The translations under genes were made by a program, and so were the position numbers. A DNA stretch of 64,000 bases, taken from contig NZ_CP154631.1 of the NCBI RefSeq assembly GCF_039555755.1, positions 4,402,001 to 4,466,000 on the forward strand, read 5' to 3'. The DNA is from Pseudomonas sediminis (GTDB lineage: Bacteria > Pseudomonadota > Gammaproteobacteria > Pseudomonadales > Pseudomonadaceae). Position 1 is the first letter of the stretch; every line of letters begins with the position of its first letter. Below the pieces are notes generated by a model. It did no database searches, had not been told where the DNA came from, and saw only the letters and a list, made by a program, of their open reading frames with translations. This document shows positions 30,882-39,366 of the stretch, piece after piece.

Positions 30882-31289
30882 ATGGCCAGCCATCTCGAAC
30901 ACCACCTCGCCCTGCTCAACCACCTGCGCGGCATCCTCGTCGCCCTGGGCGAAGCCGAACAGGTGCTCGACGACAGCCACGCCCTGTTCCTCGAGCGCTA
31001 CGACGAACTGCTCGCCGAATTGCCGCGCGACCCGGTTTCCAGCCAATACCTGGGCCAGGATCTGATCAGCCAGGTGTTCCACCGCTACCCACAGATCGCC
31101 CACCTGGTACCCCGTGATCTGCTGTGGTTCTTCGGTGGCGACTGCCTGCACTTCATGCCCGACGAAGAAATCGCCCTGTACCAGGCCCTCGACGAGCGCC
31201 GTTTCGAAGCCGAAGAGAACGACGAGCCCTTCGACTGGAACCTGGAAAAACAGCTGCTGGCCCTGCCCACTGACGGCGCCAAGCACTGA
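30882..31289 (+). CDS. PA2817-like conserved protein of unknown function
   Basis: A 135-residue soluble acidic protein (MASHLEHHLALLNHLRGILVALGEAEQ start; LVPRDLLWFFGGDCLHFMPDEEIALYQALDE near residue 80). It resembles the conserved gamma-proteobacterial family annotated after P. aeruginosa PA2817, which fits the position next to fadE. No catalytic motif is apparent. Confidence 0.75.
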   Translation: MASHLEHHLALLNHLRGILVALGEAEQVLDDSHALFLERYDELLAELPRDPVSSQYLGQDLISQVFHRYPQIAHLVPRDLLWFFGGDCLHFMPDEEIALYQALDERRFEAEENDEPFDWNLEKQLLALPTDGAKH

Positions 31290-31323
31290 TCCACCGCTAA
31301 CACCTATTGGTCAGAATGTCGCA

Positions 31324-31350
31324 GATGACGGCGGTGACAGCCGTCATCTT
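31324..31350 (+). terminator. Possible terminator after the PA2817-like gene
   Basis: GATGACGGC pairs with GCCGTCATC, followed only by TTTC; the short T tract makes it a weak candidate. Confidence 0.5.
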
Positions 31351-31355
31351 TCATG

Positions 31356-31381
31356 CATAAATACCCCCACCAGTATTTATG
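31356..31381. promoter_or_regulatory. Putative CsoR-type operator 1 (c-heme/CsoR operon)
   Basis: CATAAATAC and GTATTTATG form perfect 9-bp arms around an 8-base C-rich spacer. The core 31361-31376, ATACCCCCACCAGTAT, matches the sites at 32389-32404 and 35512-35527. It ends 10 bp before the ATG of the c-heme gene, overlapping where a ribosome site and promoter would sit. Confidence 0.72.
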
Positions 31382-31391
31382 AGGTTCGACC

Positions 31392-31940
31392 ATGCGCCCA
31401 TTTCTGCTCGCTACCCTGCTCGTTAGCACCGCCGCACAAGCAACCGCCCCCTGGCAAGACGAGGCGGCGGCGCAGATCCCACCATTCGCCGAGCACTTGC
31501 TGGGTACGGTACGCCAGGCCATCACCGATGGCGGGCCAACTGCAGCAGTACAGGCCTGCCAGGCATTGGCGCCACAGATCGCCAGCGAGCACAGCCAGCA
31601 AGCGTGGCAACTGGGCCGCACATCGCTCAAGGTACGCAACCCGGACAACACCCCCGATGCCTGGGAGCGCAGCGTGCTGGAACGCTTTGCGGAAGCCGCG
31701 ATAGCCGGAACGCCGGTCAAGGAATTACGCTACAGCGAAGAGGTCGACGGCGAATATCGCTACATGCAGGCCATTGCCGTAGGCGAGCCTTGCATGGCCT
31801 GTCACGGCACCGCGATCAAAGCAGAGGTACAAGAGGCCATTGATCAGTACTATCCGCATGATCAGGCCCGCGGCTATCAGATCGGCGAACTGCGTGGCGC
31901 CTTTACCCTGACTCGCCCCCTCGCACAGGAAACGCCATGA
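31392..31940 (+). CDS. Periplasmic c-type heme protein, DUF3365 (Tll0287-like)
   Basis: A 182-residue protein with a signal peptide (MRPFLLATLLVSTAAQA) and one heme-c attachment motif CMACH (Cys134-His138) close to the C-terminus. The DUF3365 fold is a PAS-like heme domain (RTSLKVRNPDNTPDAWERSVLERF near residue 77 and GELRGAFTLTRPL at the end). Such proteins are suspected redox or ligand sensors. The CsoR-family gene overlaps its stop by 4 bp (ATGA), so the two form an operon. The target of this heme protein is unknown. Confidence 0.82.
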   Translation: MRPFLLATLLVSTAAQATAPWQDEAAAQIPPFAEHLLGTVRQAITDGGPTAAVQACQALAPQIASEHSQQAWQLGRTSLKVRNPDNTPDAWERSVLERFAEAAIAGTPVKELRYSEEVDGEYRYMQAIAVGEPCMACHGTAIKAEVQEAIDQYYPHDQARGYQIGELRGAFTLTRPLAQETP

Positions 31941-32221
31941 CCGAGACTACCGACCTGCATTTACGCATGCTCGAACAGCAGCAAGCGATGCTCAAGCGCC
32001 TGGCCCGTGTCGAAGGCCAGATCCGTGGCATCCAGGCGATGATCAAGCGTGGCGAGGATTGCGCCGCCATCGCCCAGCAGTTCTCGGCAGCTCGTAGCGC
32101 CCTGGACAAATCCTACCGCCTGATGCTCACCTGCCTGATCGAAGAAGCCATGCTCGACCCCGAGCAGGATACCGAGGCCTCACTGCAGCGAGTGCGCGAG
32201 ATTTTCACCAAGTACACCTGA
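31937..32221 (+). CDS. CsoR/FrmR-family transcriptional repressor, unusual Cys pattern
   Basis: The 94-residue all-helical protein has the CsoR-family core: RLARVEGQIRGIQAMIKRGEDC, QQFSAARSALDKSYRLMLTC, and REIFTKYT at the end. The conserved first thiol is Cys42. The second, Cys66, lies 24 residues later. In CsoR of M. tuberculosis the ligands are Cys36, His61 and Cys65 (+25, +29), in FrmR and RcnR the His is at +25, and in S. aureus CstR the second Cys is at +29. Here +25 is Leu and +29 is Ala, so neither classical copper ligation nor the CstR pair fits. The neighbours suggest a persulfide- or sulfide-responsive repressor. That function is inferred. Confidence 0.85.
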   Translation: MTETTDLHLRMLEQQQAMLKRLARVEGQIRGIQAMIKRGEDCAAIAQQFSAARSALDKSYRLMLTCLIEEAMLDPEQDTEASLQRVREIFTKYT

Positions 32222-32388
32222 CACACGCCCCCTCTGGCGCGCCGCTCGCGCGCGCCTGCCTCTGCCAGTGCCCGGCACCTCAAAAAACGCACAAACCGGT
32301 TATGGCCGACCTGAACAAGGTTGCGACATCTTATTACTTAACAATCTATGCATAGAACCAAAACACAGTTAAGCTAAATCTTAATTAA

Positions 32389-32404
32389 ATACTCCCATGG
32401 GTAT
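32389..32404. promoter_or_regulatory. Putative CsoR-type operator 2 (persulfide dioxygenase operon)
   Basis: ATACTCCCATGGGTAT, a near-palindrome 17 bp upstream of the ATG at 32422, just before GAGAGGAG. It matches operators 1 and 3 in 12-13 of 16 positions. The upstream A+T-rich stretch 32310-32390 probably holds the promoter. Confidence 0.72.
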
Positions 32405-32421
32405 ATGAGAGGAGCCTGACC

Positions 32422-33285
32422 ATGCGCCCTGATGTCGTCGAATTCTTCGATCCTGTCACCTACACCTACAGCTACGTGATCATCGATCCTGCCACGCAAC
32501 ACTGCGCCATCGTCGACTCGGTGCTGGACTACGACCCGGCCTCCGGGCGCACCTCACACGCCAGCGCAGACCGCATCATCGCCTTCGTCAAGGAGCGCGA
32601 TCTGCACGTTGAGTGGTTGCTGGAAACCCATGTGCACGCCGACCACCTGTCCGCCGCGCCTTACCTCAAGCGCGAACTGGGCGGCAAGCTGGCCATCGGT
32701 GAGCACATCACCGTAGTGCAGAACACTTTCGGCAAGCTGTTCAACGCCGGCACCGAGTTCGCCACCGATGGCAGCCAGTTCGACCGGCTGCTCCACGATG
32801 GCGATACCTTCCATATTGGCGAGCTGCACGGTAGAGCCATCCACACTCCTGGCCATACCCCGGCCTGTATGACCTACCTGATCGGTGACGCTGGTTTCGT
32901 TGGCGACACTCTGTTCATGCCCGACTACGGCACTGCGCGCTGCGACTTCCCCGGCGGCGACGCGCACATCCTCTACCAGTCGATCCAGCGACTCTTCACC
33001 CTGCCCGACGAAACCCGCCTGTTCATGTGCCATGACTACAAAGCGCCGGGGCGCGAGGATTTTCGCTTCCAGACCACCATCGCCGAAGAACGTGCGCACA
33101 ACGTCCACGTTCATCAGGGCATCGCCGAAGCCGACTTCGTCGCCATGCGCCGCCAGCGCGACGCCACCCTGGACATCCCCACCCTGATTCTGCCGTCGGT
33201 GCAGGTCAACATGCGTGCAGGGCAACTGCCACCGGCCGAAGCCAATGGCACCCGCTACCTGAAAATCCCTTTGGATGTGCTGTAG
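32422..33285 (+). CDS. Metallo-beta-lactamase-fold hydrolase, persulfide dioxygenase-like
   Basis: A 287-residue single-domain MBL protein. Metal ligands are His70, His72, Asp74 and His75 in THVHADHL, His145 in TPGHTPAC, Asp162 in VGDTLFMPDYG and His204 in MCHDYKAPG. ETHE1-like persulfide dioxygenases use only the two His and one Asp of this set for a single iron; the MPDYGTARCDF segment is characteristic of these proteins and of Blh. It would oxidise glutathione persulfide to sulfite. The following SulP and rhodanese genes support a sulfur role. Strict PDO activity is not proven by sequence alone. Confidence 0.85.
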   Translation: MRPDVVEFFDPVTYTYSYVIIDPATQHCAIVDSVLDYDPASGRTSHASADRIIAFVKERDLHVEWLLETHVHADHLSAAPYLKRELGGKLAIGEHITVVQNTFGKLFNAGTEFATDGSQFDRLLHDGDTFHIGELHGRAIHTPGHTPACMTYLIGDAGFVGDTLFMPDYGTARCDFPGGDAHILYQSIQRLFTLPDETRLFMCHDYKAPGREDFRFQTTIAEERAHNVHVHQGIAEADFVAMRRQRDATLDIPTLILPSVQVNMRAGQLPPAEANGTRYLKIPLDVL

Positions 33286-33301
33286 AGCGGCAGGAAAAGA
33301 A

Positions 33302-35071
33302 ATGAAACTGAGCCACTGGCTGCCCTGCTTGGACTGGGGCAGACGCTACGACCGAGGCAGCGCAACGCAGGATGGACTCGCCGCACTGATCGTCACCCTG
33401 ATGCTGATTCCGCAGAGCCTGGCCTATGCCATGCTCGCGGGTCTGCCACCGGTGACCGGCCTCTACGCCAGCATCCTGCCGCTGCTGGCCTACGCCCTGT
33501 TCGGCTCCAGCCGCACTCTGGCGGTTGGTCCGGTGGCCGTGGTTTCACTGATGACCGCCGCCACCCTGGCGCCACTGTTTCCGGCCGGTAGCGCCGAATA
33601 CGTCGGCGCCGCCATGCTCCTGGCCCTGCTCTCGGGACTGCTGCTGGCAGCCATGGCCATGCTGCGCCTGGGCTTTATCGCCAACTTTCTCAGCCATCCG
33701 GTGGTGTCCGGCTTTATCAGCGCCTCGGGCATTCTCATCGCTGTCGGCCAGCTCAAGCACCTGCTCGGCGTCTCGGCGTCCGGCGAAAATCTGCTGCAGT
33801 TGCTGCCACAACTGATCCAGGCGCTACCTGGCACACACGGACCGACGCTGCTGATCGGCGTGCTCAGCCTGGCATGGCTGTGGTGGGCCAGAAGCCGACT
33901 GAAGCAACTACTGCAAGGCCTTGGCCTGTCGCCGCAACTGGCCAGTAACCTGGCCAAGGCCGGGCCGGTACTGGCGATCATCGTCGCCATTGCCGCTGTC
34001 GCACTGCTGCAACTGGAGCAAGCCGGGGTCAAGGTGGTTGGCCTGGTGCCGCAAGGGCTGCCAGGGCTGACGCTGCCGACAATGGATCTCGACCTGGCCA
34101 TACAACTGCTGCCAGCGGCGCTGCTGATCAGCCTGGTGGGCTTCGTCGAATCGGTCTCGGTCGGCCAGACCCTGGCGGCCAAACGCCGCCAGCGCATCCA
34201 GCCGGACAACGAGCTGCTCGGCCTTGGCGCGGCGAACATCGCCGCATCCTTCAGTGGCGGCTTCCCCGTCACCGGCGGTTTCGCCCGCTCGGTGGTCAAT
34301 TACGATGCCGGCGCCCGCACGCCCATGGCCGGCGTATTCACCGCCCTCGGTATCGGCCTCAGCGTGATGCTGCTGACGCCTCTGCTGCACGACCTGCCAC
34401 AAGCCGTGCTGGCGGCGACCATCATCGTCGCTGTGCTCAGCCTGGTCGACCTCAAGTCGCTGCAGCACACCTGGCGTTATTCGCGCCAGGACGGCGCCGC
34501 GCAGATTGCCACCCTCCTCGGTGTGCTGCTGATCGGCGTCGAGGCCGGTATCCTGCTTGGCGTCGGCCTGTCGCTGCTGCTGTTTCTCTGGCGCACCAGC
34601 CAGCCACATATCGCCGTGGTCGGCCAGGTACCGGGTAGCGAGCATTTTCGCAACGTCGAACGCTTCGCCGTGATCGAGAGACCCAGCGTGTTGTCGCTGC
34701 GTGTCGACGAGAGCCTGTATTTCCCCAATGCCCGCTATCTGGAAGACCGCATCGGCGAGCTGATCGCCAGTCGGCCGCAGGTACGTCACCTGGTGCTGAT
34801 GTGCTCGGGAGTCAACCTGATAGACGCCAGCGCCCTGGATTCGCTGCACGCCATCGTCGAGCGCCTGCATACCGCCGGTGTGCAACTGCACCTGTCCGAG
34901 GTCAAGGGGCCAGTAATGGATCAGCTACGCCGCTCCGACTTCCTGGAGCGCTTCGGCGGCCAGGTATTCATCAGTCAGTTCGAGGCGCTCAAGCAGCTCG
35001 CCCCCGCGCCTCCATCGCCAACTTCTCAGCCACTTTCCATGCAAGGAAATACTCATGAAAAGCGCTCATGA
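33302..35071 (+). CDS. SulP-family anion transporter with STAS domain
   Basis: A 589-residue transporter with the SulP motif LIVTLMLIPQSLAYAMLAGLPPVTGLYASILP at its start, about 10-12 membrane helices and a C-terminal STAS domain (~450-560; CSGVNLIDASALDSL). SulP proteins move sulfate, bicarbonate or other anions. In this operon between a persulfide dioxygenase-like gene and a rhodanese it may move sulfite, thiosulfate or sulfate. Start at 33302 follows GGCAGGAAAAG; it begins 16 bp after the upstream gene and overlaps the next by 17 bp. Confidence 0.88.
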   Translation: MKLSHWLPCLDWGRRYDRGSATQDGLAALIVTLMLIPQSLAYAMLAGLPPVTGLYASILPLLAYALFGSSRTLAVGPVAVVSLMTAATLAPLFPAGSAEYVGAAMLLALLSGLLLAAMAMLRLGFIANFLSHPVVSGFISASGILIAVGQLKHLLGVSASGENLLQLLPQLIQALPGTHGPTLLIGVLSLAWLWWARSRLKQLLQGLGLSPQLASNLAKAGPVLAIIVAIAAVALLQLEQAGVKVVGLVPQGLPGLTLPTMDLDLAIQLLPAALLISLVGFVESVSVGQTLAAKRRQRIQPDNELLGLGAANIAASFSGGFPVTGGFARSVVNYDAGARTPMAGVFTALGIGLSVMLLTPLLHDLPQAVLAATIIVAVLSLVDLKSLQHTWRYSRQDGAAQIATLLGVLLIGVEAGILLGVGLSLLLFLWRTSQPHIAVVGQVPGSEHFRNVERFAVIERPSVLSLRVDESLYFPNARYLEDRIGELIASRPQVRHLVLMCSGVNLIDASALDSLHAIVERLHTAGVQLHLSEVKGPVMDQLRRSDFLERFGGQVFISQFEALKQLAPAPPSPTSQPLSMQGNTHEKRS

Positions 35072-35435
35072 TCTGGTCCTCGCCGCCAAGACTCGCATCA
35101 CTGAAGTCGATCTGTCGCAGGCCGAAGCAGCCATCCGCGATGCCGACCTGCTGATCGACGTGCGCGAGGCGGATGAATACAGCGCCGCACACATTCCCGG
35201 CGCCATCAACATTCCACGCGGTCTGCTGGAATTCAAGCTGAGCAACGATGCGCAACTGGCCGAGCGCACGCTCAAGCTGGTTCTCTATTGCAAGAACAGC
35301 GGTCGCTCGGCGCTGGCTGCCGACGCGCTGCGGGAGATGGGCTATCGCAATGTGCTGTCTCTGGCCGGCGGTATCGAGGCCTGGCAAGCGGCCGGTCGAG
35401 AACTGCTGACGCCGACCCTGCCGGCGTTCGACTGA
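35055..35435 (+). CDS. Single-domain rhodanese sulfurtransferase
   Basis: A 126-residue single rhodanese domain: LLIDVREADEYSAAHIPGAINIPRG near residue 32 and the active-site loop CKNSGRS with Cys79. It could form or use a protein persulfide, for example combining sulfite from the dioxygenase with sulfane sulfur to give thiosulfate. The overlap with the SulP gene indicates the same transcript. There is no signal peptide, so it is cytosolic. Confidence 0.9.
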   Translation: MKSAHDLVLAAKTRITEVDLSQAEAAIRDADLLIDVREADEYSAAHIPGAINIPRGLLEFKLSNDAQLAERTLKLVLYCKNSGRSALAADALREMGYRNVLSLAGGIEAWQAAGRELLTPTLPAFD

Positions 35436-35511
35436 GTGATTGGCGGCTGCCACTGCAGGCATTGATCCGCTAATCGACATTCTCCTGACCTGCATCAATC
35501 TCCATCGCTAC

Positions 35512-35527
35512 ATACCCCCACGAGTAC
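35512..35527. promoter_or_regulatory. Putative CsoR-type operator 3 (cytochrome bd operon)
   Basis: ATACCCCCACGAGTAC matches operator 1 in 14 of 16 bases. It is 73 bp upstream of the cydP ATG, in a 165-bp gene-free interval that also must hold the cyd promoter. Confidence 0.68.
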
Positions 35528-35600
35528 TCTGTAACATTAGGACACATCCACTCTGCCGGTGCGGCCTCACCGCCCGCACCGGCACACGCGGAGCATCGAG

Positions 35601-35813
35601 ATGCCCGATCGCGAACCTTCCTCCCCCTGGCGCATTCCGCTAGTACGCGAAATCGCCGTGATCCTGCTGATCAAGCTGACCCTGCTGCTGAGTATCAAGG
35701 CCATCTGGTTCAACGAACCGACAGTCCCCGAGGACGGCCAGCAGCGCGTCGAGCATCACCTGTTTGGTCAGCCTGCCCCACTTTCTATACACACCGAGGA
35801 GACACCGAGATGA
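35601..35813 (+). CDS. cydP: Small cytochrome bd-associated protein CydP
   Basis: A 70-residue protein with one hydrophobic helix (residues ~17-36; [20 protein letters not shown]) and a polar C-terminal tail. It matches the CydP-type small subunit found directly upstream of some cydA genes. GGAG lies seven bases before the ATG. Its stop overlaps the cydA start by 4 bp. An upstream in-frame ATG at 35559 gives an unlikely Arg/His-rich leader. Confidence 0.78.
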
Positions 35814-37375
35814 TCTCGGAATCAGTCGTCGACCTTTCACGCCTGCAGTTCGCCATGACAGCGATGTATCACTTCATCTTCGTCCCCCTGACCCTGGGCC
35901 TGGCCTTCCTGCTGGCGATCATGGAGTCGGTCTACGTGATGACCGGCAAACAGGTCTACAAGGACATGGTCAAGTTCTGGGGCAAGCTGTTCGGCATCAA
36001 CTTCGCCTTGGGCGTCACCACCGGGCTGACCATGGAGTTCCAGTTCGGCACCAACTGGGCCTACTACAGCCACTATGTCGGTGACATCTTCGGTGCGCCG
36101 CTGGCCATCGAAGGACTGATGGCCTTCTTCCTCGAATCCACCTTCATCGGCCTGTTCTTCTTCGGCTGGGACCGCCTAAGCAAGCTGCAGCACCTGACCG
36201 TGACCTGGCTGGTGGCAATTGGCTCGAACCTTTCGGCGCTGTGGATCCTCATCGCCAATGGCTGGATGCAGAACCCGGTAGGTGCCGAGTTTAACTTCGA
36301 GACCATGCGCATGGAACTGACCGATTTCGGTGCCCTGCTGTTCAACCCGGTGGCGCAGGTCAAGTTCGTGCATACCGTGGCGGCGGGCTATGTCACCGGT
36401 TCGATCTTCGTCCTGGCCATCTCCAGCTATTACCTGCTGAAGAAACGCGATCAGGGTTTCGCCCGTCGCTCCTTCACCATCGCCTCGGCCTTCGGTCTGG
36501 CCTCGATTCTCTCGGTGATCGTCCTCGGTGACGAGTCCGGCTACGAGATCGGCGACGTGCAGAAGACCAAGCTGGCGGCCATCGAGGCCGAGTGGGAAAC
36601 CCACCCAGCACCGGCGGGCTTCACCCTGTTCGGCCTGCCCAACCAGGACGAGCAGCGCACCGACTACGCGGTGAAGATCCCCTACGCCCTGGGGCTGATA
36701 GCCACCCGCTCGCTGGATAAGAAGGTAAAGGGCATCAAGGACCTGCTCATCGAGCACGAGGCGCGCATCCGCACCGGCATGACCGCCTACGGGCTGCTGG
36801 AGCGCCTGCGTAACGGCGACAAGTCGGCCGAAACCATTGCTGCCTTCAACGAAGTGAAGAATGACCTGGGCTATGGCCTGCTGCTGAAGAAATACACCGC
36901 CAATGTGGTCGATGCCAGCGAGGCACAGATCAAGCAGGCCGCGCTGGACACCATTCCCAACGTGTTCAGCCTGTTCTGGAGCTTCCGCATCATGGTCGCC
37001 AGCGGCTTCCTTATGCTGGCGCTGTTCGCCTGCGCCTTCTGGGCCTCGGCGAAGAAGAACGAAGAAAGCAAACCCTGGCTGCTCAAGTGGGCGCTGTGGA
37101 GCCTGCCACTGCCCTGGATCGCCGCACAGACCGGCTGGTACGTGGCTGAACATGGCCGCCAGCCCTGGTCGATTGGTGAGGTGCTGCCGACCCATCTTTC
37201 CGCCTCCAGCCTGTCGTCCGGTGACGTCTGGGGCTCGCTGATCGCGCTGATCGCCTTCTACAGCCTGCTGCTGGTGGTGGAGATGTACCTGATGATCAAG
37301 TTCGCCCGCCTTGGCCCATCGAGCCTGCACAGCGGACGCTACCACTTCGAGCAACAGCAGCCGGCCCACGCCTGA
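35810..37375 (+). CDS. cydA: Cytochrome bd ubiquinol oxidase subunit I
   Basis: A 521-residue CydA carrying hemes b558, b595 and d. His21 (heme ligand; E. coli His19), His188 (E. coli His186) and Met395 (E. coli Met393) are all present, and the Glu pair 101/109 lies in [11 protein letters not shown]. The Q-loop is the long E. coli type ([15 protein letters not shown] at ~249 and ~100 residues beyond), so it is CydA rather than the short-loop CioA type common in pseudomonads. It reduces O2 to water with quinol; bd oxidases tolerate sulfide and cyanide better than heme-copper oxidases. Confidence 0.95.
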
Positions 37376-37385
37376 GGACTTCGTC

Positions 37386-38525
37386 ATGTTCGACTACGAA
37401 ACCCTGAAACTCGTCTGGTGGGTGCTGATCGGCGTGCTGCTGATCGGTTTCGCTCTCACCGATGGCTTCGACATGGGCGCCATGGCGCTGATGCCTTTCG
37501 TCGGCAAGACCGACAACGAGCGCCGCGTCGCCATCAACACCATCGCCCCGCACTGGGACGGCAACCAGGTGTGGTTCATCACCGCTGGCGGCGCGCTGTT
37601 CGCCGCCTGGCCGATGGTCTACGCGGTGGCCTTCTCCGGGCTGTACTGGGCCATGTTACTGGTGCTGTTCGCCCTTTTCTGCCGCCCGGTGGGCTTCGAC
37701 TACCGCAGCAAACTGGAAAACACCCGCTGGCGCAGCGCCTGGGACTGGGCCCTGTTCGTTGGCGGCGCGGTACCGGCGCTGGTTTTCGGCGTGGCCTTCG
37801 GCAACCTGTTCCTCGGCCTGCCGTTCCAGCTCGATGACATGATGCGCTCGAGCTACCACGGCTCCTTCTTCGCCCTGCTCAACCCCTTCGCCCTGCTCTG
37901 CGGCGTGGTCAGCCTGAGCATGCTCTGCGCCCACGGCGGCGCCTGGCTGATGATGCGCACCGAAGGTGACCTGGCCGCACGCTCGCGCACGGCCACTTAC
38001 CTCAGTGCGCTGGTATTCCTGATCGGTTTCCTGCTGGCCGGCAGTTGGCTGGCACTGGGTATCAAGGGCATGAGTCTGGCGGGTGCGTTCGATGCTGGCG
38101 CGGCACTGAACCCGCTGCACAAGCAGGTGCTCGCCGACAATGCCGGCTGGCTCGGCAATTACAGTCGCTACCCACTGACAATGGGCGCCCCCGTGCTTGG
38201 TGTGGTCGGCGCACTGCTGGCGATTCTCGCCAGCACCTGGCGTCTCGCCGGCCTGACCTTCATCGGCAGTAGCCTGATGATCGTCGGCACCATCTGCACC
38301 GCCGGCTTCGCCCTATTCCCCTTCGTCTTCCCGTCGAGCCTTGATGCGGCCTCCAGCCTGACGGTGTGGGACGCGGTATCGAGCCAAAAGACCCTCGGCA
38401 TCATGTTCGTGGTCGCCTGCATCTTCGTACCGATCATCCTCATCTACACCCTCTGGGGCTACGTGAAGATGTGGGGCAAGCTCAACGACCGCAGCATCGA
38501 AGCCAACCCCCACAGCCTGTATTGA
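37386..38525 (+). CDS. cydB: Cytochrome bd ubiquinol oxidase subunit II
   Basis: A 379-residue CydB, identical in length to that of E. coli. It has about eight helices; DGFDMGAMALMPF, WDGNQVWFITAGGALFAAWP and GFDYRSK mark the family. It has no heme ligands of its own but completes the oxidase core. The gene begins 10 bp after cydA with TGAGGA as ribosome site. An ATG further upstream in the frame lies inside cydA. Confidence 0.95.
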   Translation: MFDYETLKLVWWVLIGVLLIGFALTDGFDMGAMALMPFVGKTDNERRVAINTIAPHWDGNQVWFITAGGALFAAWPMVYAVAFSGLYWAMLLVLFALFCRPVGFDYRSKLENTRWRSAWDWALFVGGAVPALVFGVAFGNLFLGLPFQLDDMMRSSYHGSFFALLNPFALLCGVVSLSMLCAHGGAWLMMRTEGDLAARSRTATYLSALVFLIGFLLAGSWLALGIKGMSLAGAFDAGAALNPLHKQVLADNAGWLGNYSRYPLTMGAPVLGVVGALLAILASTWRLAGLTFIGSSLMIVGTICTAGFALFPFVFPSSLDAASSLTVWDAVSSQKTLGIMFVVACIFVPIILIYTLWGYVKMWGKLNDRSIEANPHSLY

Positions 38526-38536
38526 GGAGAAACGCG

Positions 38537-38650
38537 ATGTGGTACTTCACCTGGATTCTTGGCGTGCTGCTGGCCTGCAGCTTCGGCATCATCAACGCAC
38601 TATGGCTGGAAACCACGCAGGATCTCGACACCGAGAGCGAGCATGAGTGA
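38537..38650 (+). CDS. cydX: Cytochrome bd small subunit CydX
   Basis: A 37-residue single-helix peptide starting MWYFTWILGVLLACSFGIINA, almost the same as E. coli CydX. It stabilises heme d in CydAB. GAGGAG lies eight bases before the ATG, and its stop overlaps the ybgE start by 8 bp. Confidence 0.95.
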   Translation: MWYFTWILGVLLACSFGIINALWLETTQDLDTESEHE

Positions 38651-38933
38651 CACCACCCTGAGCGAGCGCGCGCCGTTGCGCGTGCTCTCCTGGCTGCTGG
38701 CCACGCCCCTGGCGCTGCTGCTGCTGATCCACCCCGGCGCCATGCTCGACAGCCAGGGCCGCTACAGCCATTCGCTGCTGATGCTGGTGATGTGGGGCGT
38801 ATCCAACGCCTTCATCCACGGCGTCGGCTTCGCCCCGCGCCACTGGCTGTGGCGCGCCATATTCTCACCCTGGTTGGGCTGGGGATTGTGCGGGCTGGGC
38901 TATACCCTGCTGTATCTGGCACGAACGGCCTGA
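38643..38933 (+). CDS. ybgE: cyd operon protein YbgE
   Basis: A 96-residue membrane protein with about three helices (LLATPLALLLLIHPGAM, LLMLVMWGVSNAFIHGVGF, WLGWGLCGLGYTLLYLA). The FIHGVGF-P motif identifies YbgE, the last gene of many cydAB operons. Its function remains unclear. A terminator follows. Confidence 0.9.
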   Translation: MSDTTLSERAPLRVLSWLLATPLALLLLIHPGAMLDSQGRYSHSLLMLVMWGVSNAFIHGVGFAPRHWLWRAIFSPWLGWGLCGLGYTLLYLARTA

Positions 38934-38987: not shown

Positions 38988-39063
<76 letters not shown>

Positions 39064-39077
39064 AGTACAACTTGAAA

Positions 39078-39153
39078 TGGCGTCCCCTAGGGGACTCGAA
39101 CCCCTGTTACCGCCGTGAAAGGGCGGTGTCCTAGGCCACTAGACGAAGGGGAC
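39078..39153 (-). tRNA. tRNA-Glu(TTC)
   Basis: 76 nt. The minus strand reads GTCCCCTTCGTCTAGTGG, anticodon loop CTTTCAC in a CCGCC/GGCGG stem, GGTTCGAGTCC in the T arm and an encoded CCA end. Confidence 0.97.
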
Positions 39154-39199
39154 CTTGGAACTTCGTTTGAAACCCTGCCGAAGCAGCATTTCGAAAATT

Positions 39200-39275
<76 letters not shown>

Positions 39276-39290
39276 ATTACAGCTTGAAAG

Positions 39291-39366
39291 TGGCGTCCCC
39301 TAGGGGACTCGAACCCCTGTTACCGCCGTGAAAGGGCGGTGTCCTAGGCCACTAGACGAAGGGGAC
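39291..39366 (-). tRNA. tRNA-Glu(TTC), second copy
   Basis: Identical to the copy at 39078-39153. It is the promoter-proximal gene of the four-tRNA array. Confidence 0.97.

Follow-up and report, generated by a model that had tools for sequence, protein, structure and literature searches.

A CsoR-family repressor as candidate coordinator of persulfide detoxification and a cytochrome bd oxidase in Pseudomonas sediminis

Three gene units and their operators

Positions 31,356 to 38,933 of the DNA analysed here, a stretch of 64,000 nucleotides (the window) from Pseudomonas sediminis (assembly GCF_039555755.1, contig NZ_CP154631.1, positions 4,402,001 to 4,466,000 of the forward strand), carry three successive gene units: one for a c-type heme protein and a CsoR-family repressor, hereafter REG; one for a persulfide dioxygenase (PDO), a SulP-family transporter and a rhodanese; and one, cydPABX-ybgE, for a cytochrome bd oxidase (Table 1). 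Each is preceded by a copy of the same operator-like site. Sequence comparison indicates that one CsoR-family repressor, through one common operator type, very probably controls its own gene, the PDO operon and this bd oxidase of sulfide-tolerant type, and that REG is most likely a repressor that responds to sulfane sulfur and governs persulfide detoxification and a bd oxidase. A first-pass annotation, made from the letters of the window, had named the genes of the three units and pointed to the three sites; the gene identities are borne out by Pfam and NCBIfam profiles, and the sites lie where it placed them and share a common consensus.

The window genome (G000) is a complete chromosome of one contig and 4,615,908 bases, in which the consensus has exactly three exact matches, all within the window, and none with one mismatch; the first-pass annotation had seen no fourth copy in the window. 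The 20 further matches that appear at two mismatches are at the level of chance (23 in total, against 29 for the backwards pattern), and the broader palindrome ATACYCYNNNNRGTAY occurs in the same three places exclusively (two matches for its backwards control). Rarity of the motif throughout the genome, a check set beforehand, therefore holds for both the exact consensus and the relaxed palindrome. The pattern ATACYCNNNNNRGTAY adds two places, both devoid of the C-run, and in the window taken alone the seven matches with up to three mismatches are barely over chance (shuffle mean 2.96; 6 of 100 shuffles reach seven). Since the three sites themselves gave rise to the consensus, the genome scan serves as a check of uniqueness and not as functional proof, and the independent evidence is that of conservation elsewhere. 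No sigma-70 promoter emerged from a scan of 31250-35620, and the -10 elements named below were therefore assigned by eye.

Table 1. Features of the three units in the window (coordinates from the first letter of the window)
Feature	Sequence	Position	Strand	Evidence or remark
Operator 1	ATACCCCCACCAGTAT	31361..31376	+	15 bp ahead of heme-protein start
c-heme protein, Tll0287-like (DUF3365)		31392..31940	+	PF11845 E 2.4e-24; 5b82 Tll0287 E 6e-11
CsoR-family repressor (REG)		31937..32221	+	PF02583; cysteines C42 and C66
Second conserved dyad, PDO promoter	ATCTATGCATAGAA	32344..32357	+	
Operator 2	ATACTCCCATGGGTAT	32389..32404	+	17 bp ahead of PDO start
PDO, metallo-beta-lactamase fold		32422..33285	+	Pfam/NCBIfam
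SulP-family anion transporter with STAS domain		33302..35071	+	Pfam/NCBIfam
Single-domain rhodanese		35055..35435	+	Pfam/NCBIfam
FNR/ANR-like box	CTGACCTGCATCAA	35485..35498	+	2 mismatches to the consensus TTGAT-N4-ATCAA
Operator 3	ATACCCCCACGAGTAC	35512..35527	+	between ANR-like box and putative -10; 73 bp ahead of CydP start
Putative -10, TAACAT		35532-35537	+	inferred by eye
cydP		35601..35813	+	NF045611 over its cut-off
cydA, cytochrome bd subunit I		35810..37375	+	PF01654 E 2.4e-175
cydB		37386..38525	+	TIGR00203 over cut-off
cydX		38537..38650	+	TIGR02106 over cut-off
ybgE-like		38643..38933	+	PF09600 over cut-off; TIGR02112 under its cut-off

The heme protein displays a CMACH heme motif and a signal-peptide-like start, both judged by eye, and is possibly a periplasmic sensor or electron carrier. 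The nearest solved chains to PDO are 9g8t and 4ysk. With regard to the "sulfur anion transport" of the first-pass annotation, assignment to the SulP family stands, and the nature of the anion is a family-level assumption. A tandemly duplicated tRNA-Gly(GCC)/tRNA-Glu(TTC) pair lies directly 3' of the cyd operon, at 38988-39366.

Operator and repressor among related genomes

The comparison employed a sample of 199 genomes of the genus and an additional sample of the order, which includes genome G218. A REG orthologue (E <=1e-30, identity >=63%) is present in 17 of the 199 genus genomes; 80 have a match at all, the remaining 63 possessing distant family members solely. A genome labelled as the same species (G064, 97% DNA identity to the window over 19 kb) and Pseudomonas indoloxydans JCM 14246 (L119, 98% over the 10.8 kb that span the three units) are close to the window. 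The exact 16-mer occurs in 9 of the 199 genomes, the same number as its backwards control, so counting across the genus is uninformative alone, and placement and orthologous promoters were tested. Of 16 exact-motif places, 15 fall in 8 of the 17 genomes that carry REG, and none of the nine backwards-control genomes is among those 17 (Fisher p 4e-9, without correction for relatedness). The match in the ninth genome, G149, lies inside a cation-efflux-family gene and was rejected as an operator.

The cyd promoter provides a natural control. CydA orthologues are matched in 33 of the 199 genomes, and the DNA upstream of cydA was read in 26 of these: all six with REG and 20 of 27 without, the seven others all being 64-65% identical. 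The operator precedes cydA in all six genomes with REG (score >=17.3) and in none of the 20 without it (best score 12.5); random 600-base windows place the 95% point of this score at 10.0 and the 99% point at 16.4. In G008, where REG and PDO both find no match, CydA has 93% identity and the cydA promoter can be aligned with that of the window from the ANR-like box to the putative -10 region, most of the operator being missing between them; the alignments of G148 and G146 were poor, involving the wrong stretch, and G008 alone was used. All 20 cydA promoters whose orthologue is at least 82% identical (six with REG, 14 without) contain the FNR/ANR-like box at up to two mismatches to its consensus, while the six orthologues of 62-65% identity have matches at two or three mismatches solely. 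The putative -10 starts 21 bases past the box in G008 and G148; in the clade of the window the operator lies between the two, with a spacing of 33, and in G148 it lies downstream of the putative -10. The differing positions of the operator, and the retention of the box with or without it, suggest that the operator was put onto an older promoter; on these inferred -10 assignments, it appears to have been added to ANR/FNR-like oxygen control at differing positions. Operator-like sites also precede bd oxidases of the other subfamily: a partial one in G012, and in G014, where the heme-protein and REG genes diverge from the bd operon, two between them, one of which is imperfect.

These data bear on the idea that operator 3 is a neutral leftover, the PDO and repressor operators being functional and cydPABX obeying ANR alone. 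The universal retention of the ANR-like box in the 20 closer promoters is compatible with it, as is the weak symmetry of operator 3, which like operator 1 pairs at four of eight positions and whose outermost pair is broken. However, a split of 6/6 against 0/20, persistence at divergent promoters in differing positions, and the sites in front of the other subfamily in G014 and G012 render this idea quite improbable.

The PDO promoters show a similar distribution, the operator being found ahead of 10 of 13 PDO genes in genomes with REG and 1 of 18 in those without, the latter in G187. The first set includes G218 and two genes of G069; two further REG-carrying loci in Stutzerimonas (L121, L123), which also have a high-scoring site ahead of PDO, were not counted. 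The second set takes the best-matching gene from each of the twelve genomes that lack REG and stand nearest by identity (>=67%), plus six of many more at 66-67%. Conservation is also seen away from REG: the operator lies at cydPA on contig 10 of G148, REG being on contig 2 (separation at least about 45 kb by contig-end distances), and at PDO-SulP on contig 9 of G218, REG being on contig 10 (at least about 80 kb). Further targets are suggested by G069, with operators ahead of three places (a pair of PDO and peroxiredoxin genes; PDO-BLH-SQR; a region that includes a rhodanese gene), and by G113, in which a fourth site lies ahead of a gene cluster whose members include a peroxiredoxin and genes of the TsoY and octaheme tetrathionate-reductase families. 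In G012 an operator precedes a gene whose DsrE match is sub-threshold; for a gene next to an operator in G069 (L246) the DsrE-like label is weak, since no Pfam family matches it and its relative in G012 falls short of the DsrE cut-off. Where REG is present in the genome or strain, 11 of 14 PDO promoters also contain another dyad (consensus TTCTAWGCATAGAA, with as many as three substitutions), 58-96 bp ahead of the gene start; the exceptions are G069b, G082 and G180. Where REG is absent, 1 of 18 has it, again that of G187, in which the operator occurs too. The dyad resembles an ArsR-type site, ATTC-N8-GAAT.

Conservation ahead of orthologous units, the other check set beforehand, is thus found even for units on other contigs and nearly only where the repressor is present, G187 being the exception, and the first-pass proposal of a repressor that coordinates three units gains comparative support. 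Chance resemblance of the three promoters might be invoked because the consensus came from the sites themselves and the 16-mer is no more widespread than its backwards control, but it is contradicted by conservation and placement at orthologous units, also on other contigs, and has next to nothing left to recommend it.

A wider survey covered 77 regulator loci, with sulfur genes sought within 8 kb, and 33 comparison loci. Excluded from the 77 were genome repeats (L120, L126, L134, L164; L080 and L120 are one genome), cysteine-losing loci (L145, L158, L160, L165-L167) and L115, for lack of a REG match; the comparison loci include six cysteine-losing kin of the REG branch (L170, L171, L173, L174, L195, L197), on contigs of unequal size. 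PDO counts in this survey are lower bounds, the query set passed over at least one sulfur locus (L130, with TauE), and protein clusters, which mixed unrelated frames, were used for picking proteins and nothing else. In 16 of the 77 loci a Tll0287-like heme gene is found no more than 8 kb from that of the repressor, mostly directly 5' of it, and several of these 16 have no other listed sulfur gene close by.

The repressor, its cysteines and its signal

REG matches PF02583 with 71.9 bits (gathering score 22.8) and no other Pfam family at E 0.001; it thus carries no sigma-54 activator or ArsR-type domain of the kind present in FisR or SqrR-BigR. It is the only PF02583 protein of its genome, in a search that matched 6 of 14 control genomes, and any CsoR-family protein that reads these operators must therefore be REG. 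The AlphaFold monomer model (pLDDT 90) consists of three helices (2-38, 42-72, 79-93), and InrS, FrmR and CsoR are among its best structural matches, although unrelated helical bundles score similarly.

In the proteobacterial branch to which REG belongs, C42 and C66, 24 residues apart (Cx23C), are invariant in all 37 alignment rows, and no row has a cysteine at column 71. Copper-sensing CsoR proteins employ a Cys-His-Cys ligand set; REG has C42, with Leu and Ala at positions 67 and 71, and lacks that set. Nor does it have the two cysteines 29 residues apart (C31, C60) that characterize CstR, while another hallmark of that group, control of persulfide and sulfide genes by way of C/G-tract operators, is indicated for REG at the level of sequence. 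With its second cysteine five residues from the CstR/CsoR position, REG can be considered CstR-like in role, and not a CstR by the spacing of its cysteines. The "persulfide-sensing repressor" of the first-pass annotation is therefore correct as to family; the known sensor cysteine signature is absent, and persulfide sensing is suggested by the target genes. Relatives of REG in Oxalobacteraceae (Massilia, Undibacterium, Telluria and kin) and one in Lysobacterales have lost the second or both cysteines (L145, L158, L160, L165-L167, L170, L171, L173, L174, L195, L197), and their signal may differ.

The same features help in weighing other signals. Detection of a metal (Cu, Ni) or of formaldehyde through the same repressor and operators would be in keeping with most of the family, which Pfam names metal-sensitive repressor, and with CsoR, InrS and FrmR being among the best solved relatives; the missing Cys-His-Cys set and a target list of mostly sulfur genes, not metal exporters, make it very unlikely. 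A signal of thiol or redox stress in general (disulfide, HNO, electrophile), with PDO and the bd oxidase as members of a redox-stress regulon, deserves somewhat more consideration: S. aureus CstR reacts with HNO (PMC5480029) and the Thermus thermophilus regulator TTHA1953 answers oxidation and not NaHS (PMC10318464), as far as the available parts of these papers go, and two relatives have a peroxiredoxin gene among the targets. The recurrent association with PDO, rhodanese, TauE and BLH-SQR nevertheless indicates sulfane sulfur chemistry, and redox stress as the signal is a minority prospect.

As for substrates, in 10 of 14 relative loci with PDO and SulP a fusion of about 580 residues, joining a BLH-type sulfur transferase to a type-III-like SQR, lies between these two genes. 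It is absent from the junction (33286-33301 in the window) in the window, G064 and P. indoloxydans, and also in G133, G154 and G218, and searches of the window genome with the fusion and with an SQR-III profile yielded no convincing copy of either (best profile match 27.8 bits). The profile does find SQR in G177 and G113, and G064 has an extra partial match of 42.8 bits. Of the "sulfide oxidation" that the first-pass annotation had ascribed to the locus, removal of persulfide or sulfane sulfur and sulfide-tolerant respiration are retained, whereas no SQR is present in the operon and no recognisable type-III enzyme elsewhere. The system of this species therefore probably deals with sulfane sulfur that originates in cysteine, thiosulfate or an external source and shields respiration, rather than performing SQR-based sulfide oxidation.

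Proposed mechanism and relation to known systems

The explanation that accounts best for these observations, and which we hold with good confidence, is repression by REG at three promoters, relieved by sulfane sulfur and layered on ANR-like control of cyd. REG would bind the three ATAC(C/T)C-N5-(G/A)GTA(T/C) operators and silence the promoters of the heme protein and REG, of PDO-SulP-rhodanese, and of cydPABX-ybgE. A rise in sulfane sulfur (persulfide or polysulfide) would lead to modification of C42 and C66, or to their cross-linking between subunits, and to a lower affinity for DNA; derepression would then supply enzymes for the oxidation and movement of sulfane sulfur and, with them, a quinol oxidase presumably not poisoned by sulfide. 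At the cyd promoter, control by REG would be laid over an older low-oxygen (ANR/FNR-like) site. A broader proposition, which could go either way, is that a proteobacterial CsoR branch with its own sensor chemistry, marked by the invariant C42/C66 pair, captured bd oxidases of two subfamilies on separate occasions, with the operator placed differently in an ANR-type promoter, which would put bd under the immediate control of a sulfane-sulfur sensor.

Several observations weigh against this explanation. The tested genomes are relatives, so the p-values overstate independence; 26 of the 77 regulator loci have no perfect ATAC-N8-GTAT upstream, and in 36 no listed sulfur gene was present within 8 kb. 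The PDO genes of three REG-carrying genomes (G082, G180, G133) have no operator, and no convincing one was found in L108 and L111, from another family of the order, where regulator, PDO, BLH-SQR, SulP and bd oxidase lie side by side. G187 has the operator and no REG orthologue was found in its 90%-complete assembly, and some relaxed-pattern sites elsewhere adjoin unrelated genes and look like background, the backwards control giving about 1.8 matches per genome. Finally, the second cysteine is off the CstR position, so that the persulfide mechanism of CstR is not transferable, and the window species is devoid of an SQR that several relatives carry.

In E. coli, sulfide inhibits the bo-type oxidase and induces cytochrome bd, by a mechanism that the consulted part of the study calls unknown, and cydAB read counts rise in RNA-seq of a ygaV mutant (PMC9774250); in A. 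baumannii, sulfide induces cydAB, the direct regulator not being named in the portion available (PMC7315123). The present locus offers a candidate direct DNA link between sulfide and cytochrome bd, with one repressor, three sites in the genome, and natural control species that have the same oxidase and neither repressor nor site, and this wiring makes sulfide induction of cytochrome bd a directly testable question. If a branch with its own sensor chemistry is confirmed, cytochrome bd would stand directly under a sulfane-sulfur sensor, and oxygen and sulfur would be read at one promoter. The best matches in the open-licence PMC literature describe neither a CsoR-type regulator at cyd promoters nor the C42/C66 arrangement, which would be a new one in a well-studied sensor family; a 2021 study in NAR reportedly covers CsoR-family persulfide sensors and may mention the pattern earlier. 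The portions available of the cyanide papers on P. pseudoalcaligenes CECT5344 do not mention a REG-type regulator, and those of the PaPDO paper (PMC12856154) name no regulator of PaPDO.

The operator of CstR is likewise a C/G-tract, and S. aureus CstR and Bacillus licheniformis YrkD share with REG the CsoR family, two cysteines and sulfur-detoxification targets (rhodanese, SQR, PDO, sulfite exporter). According to the parts of the papers at hand, YrkD is CstR-like (PMC9918477), and in CstR C31 pairs with C60' and direct control extends to probably one operon (PMC5480029), whereas in REG the second cysteine lies five residues earlier and at least three units, a bd oxidase among them, are putative targets. 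TTHA1953 is also a CsoR-family regulator with sulfur genes at several unlinked promoters; the accessible text reports Sox genes, the operator TACNNTACNNNNGTANNGTA without a C/G run, cysteines C39 and C68, and no response to NaHS (PMC10318464), in contrast with the C/G-run operator and C42/C66 of REG. E. coli YgaV and BigR/SqrR are sulfide-responsive regulators, as REG may be.

These last regulators belong to the ArsR family and not to that of CsoR. FisR-controlled PDO-SQR units offer a parallel in gene content. In G124 and G139, which have no REG orthologue, PDO, the BLH-SQR fusion and a TauE exporter (a label checked by profile in G124 only) diverge from a PAS/sigma-54/Fis activator of FisR architecture, which is directly followed by cydA (L297, L298; L297:7721-12117). 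The same PDO/bd module is thus found beside another regulator, one with the architecture of an activator instead of a CsoR-family repressor, and the cydA promoters of L297 and L298 are devoid of an operator of the REG type. That persulfide removal and a bd oxidase adjoin under two unrelated regulators supports the functional reading proposed here.

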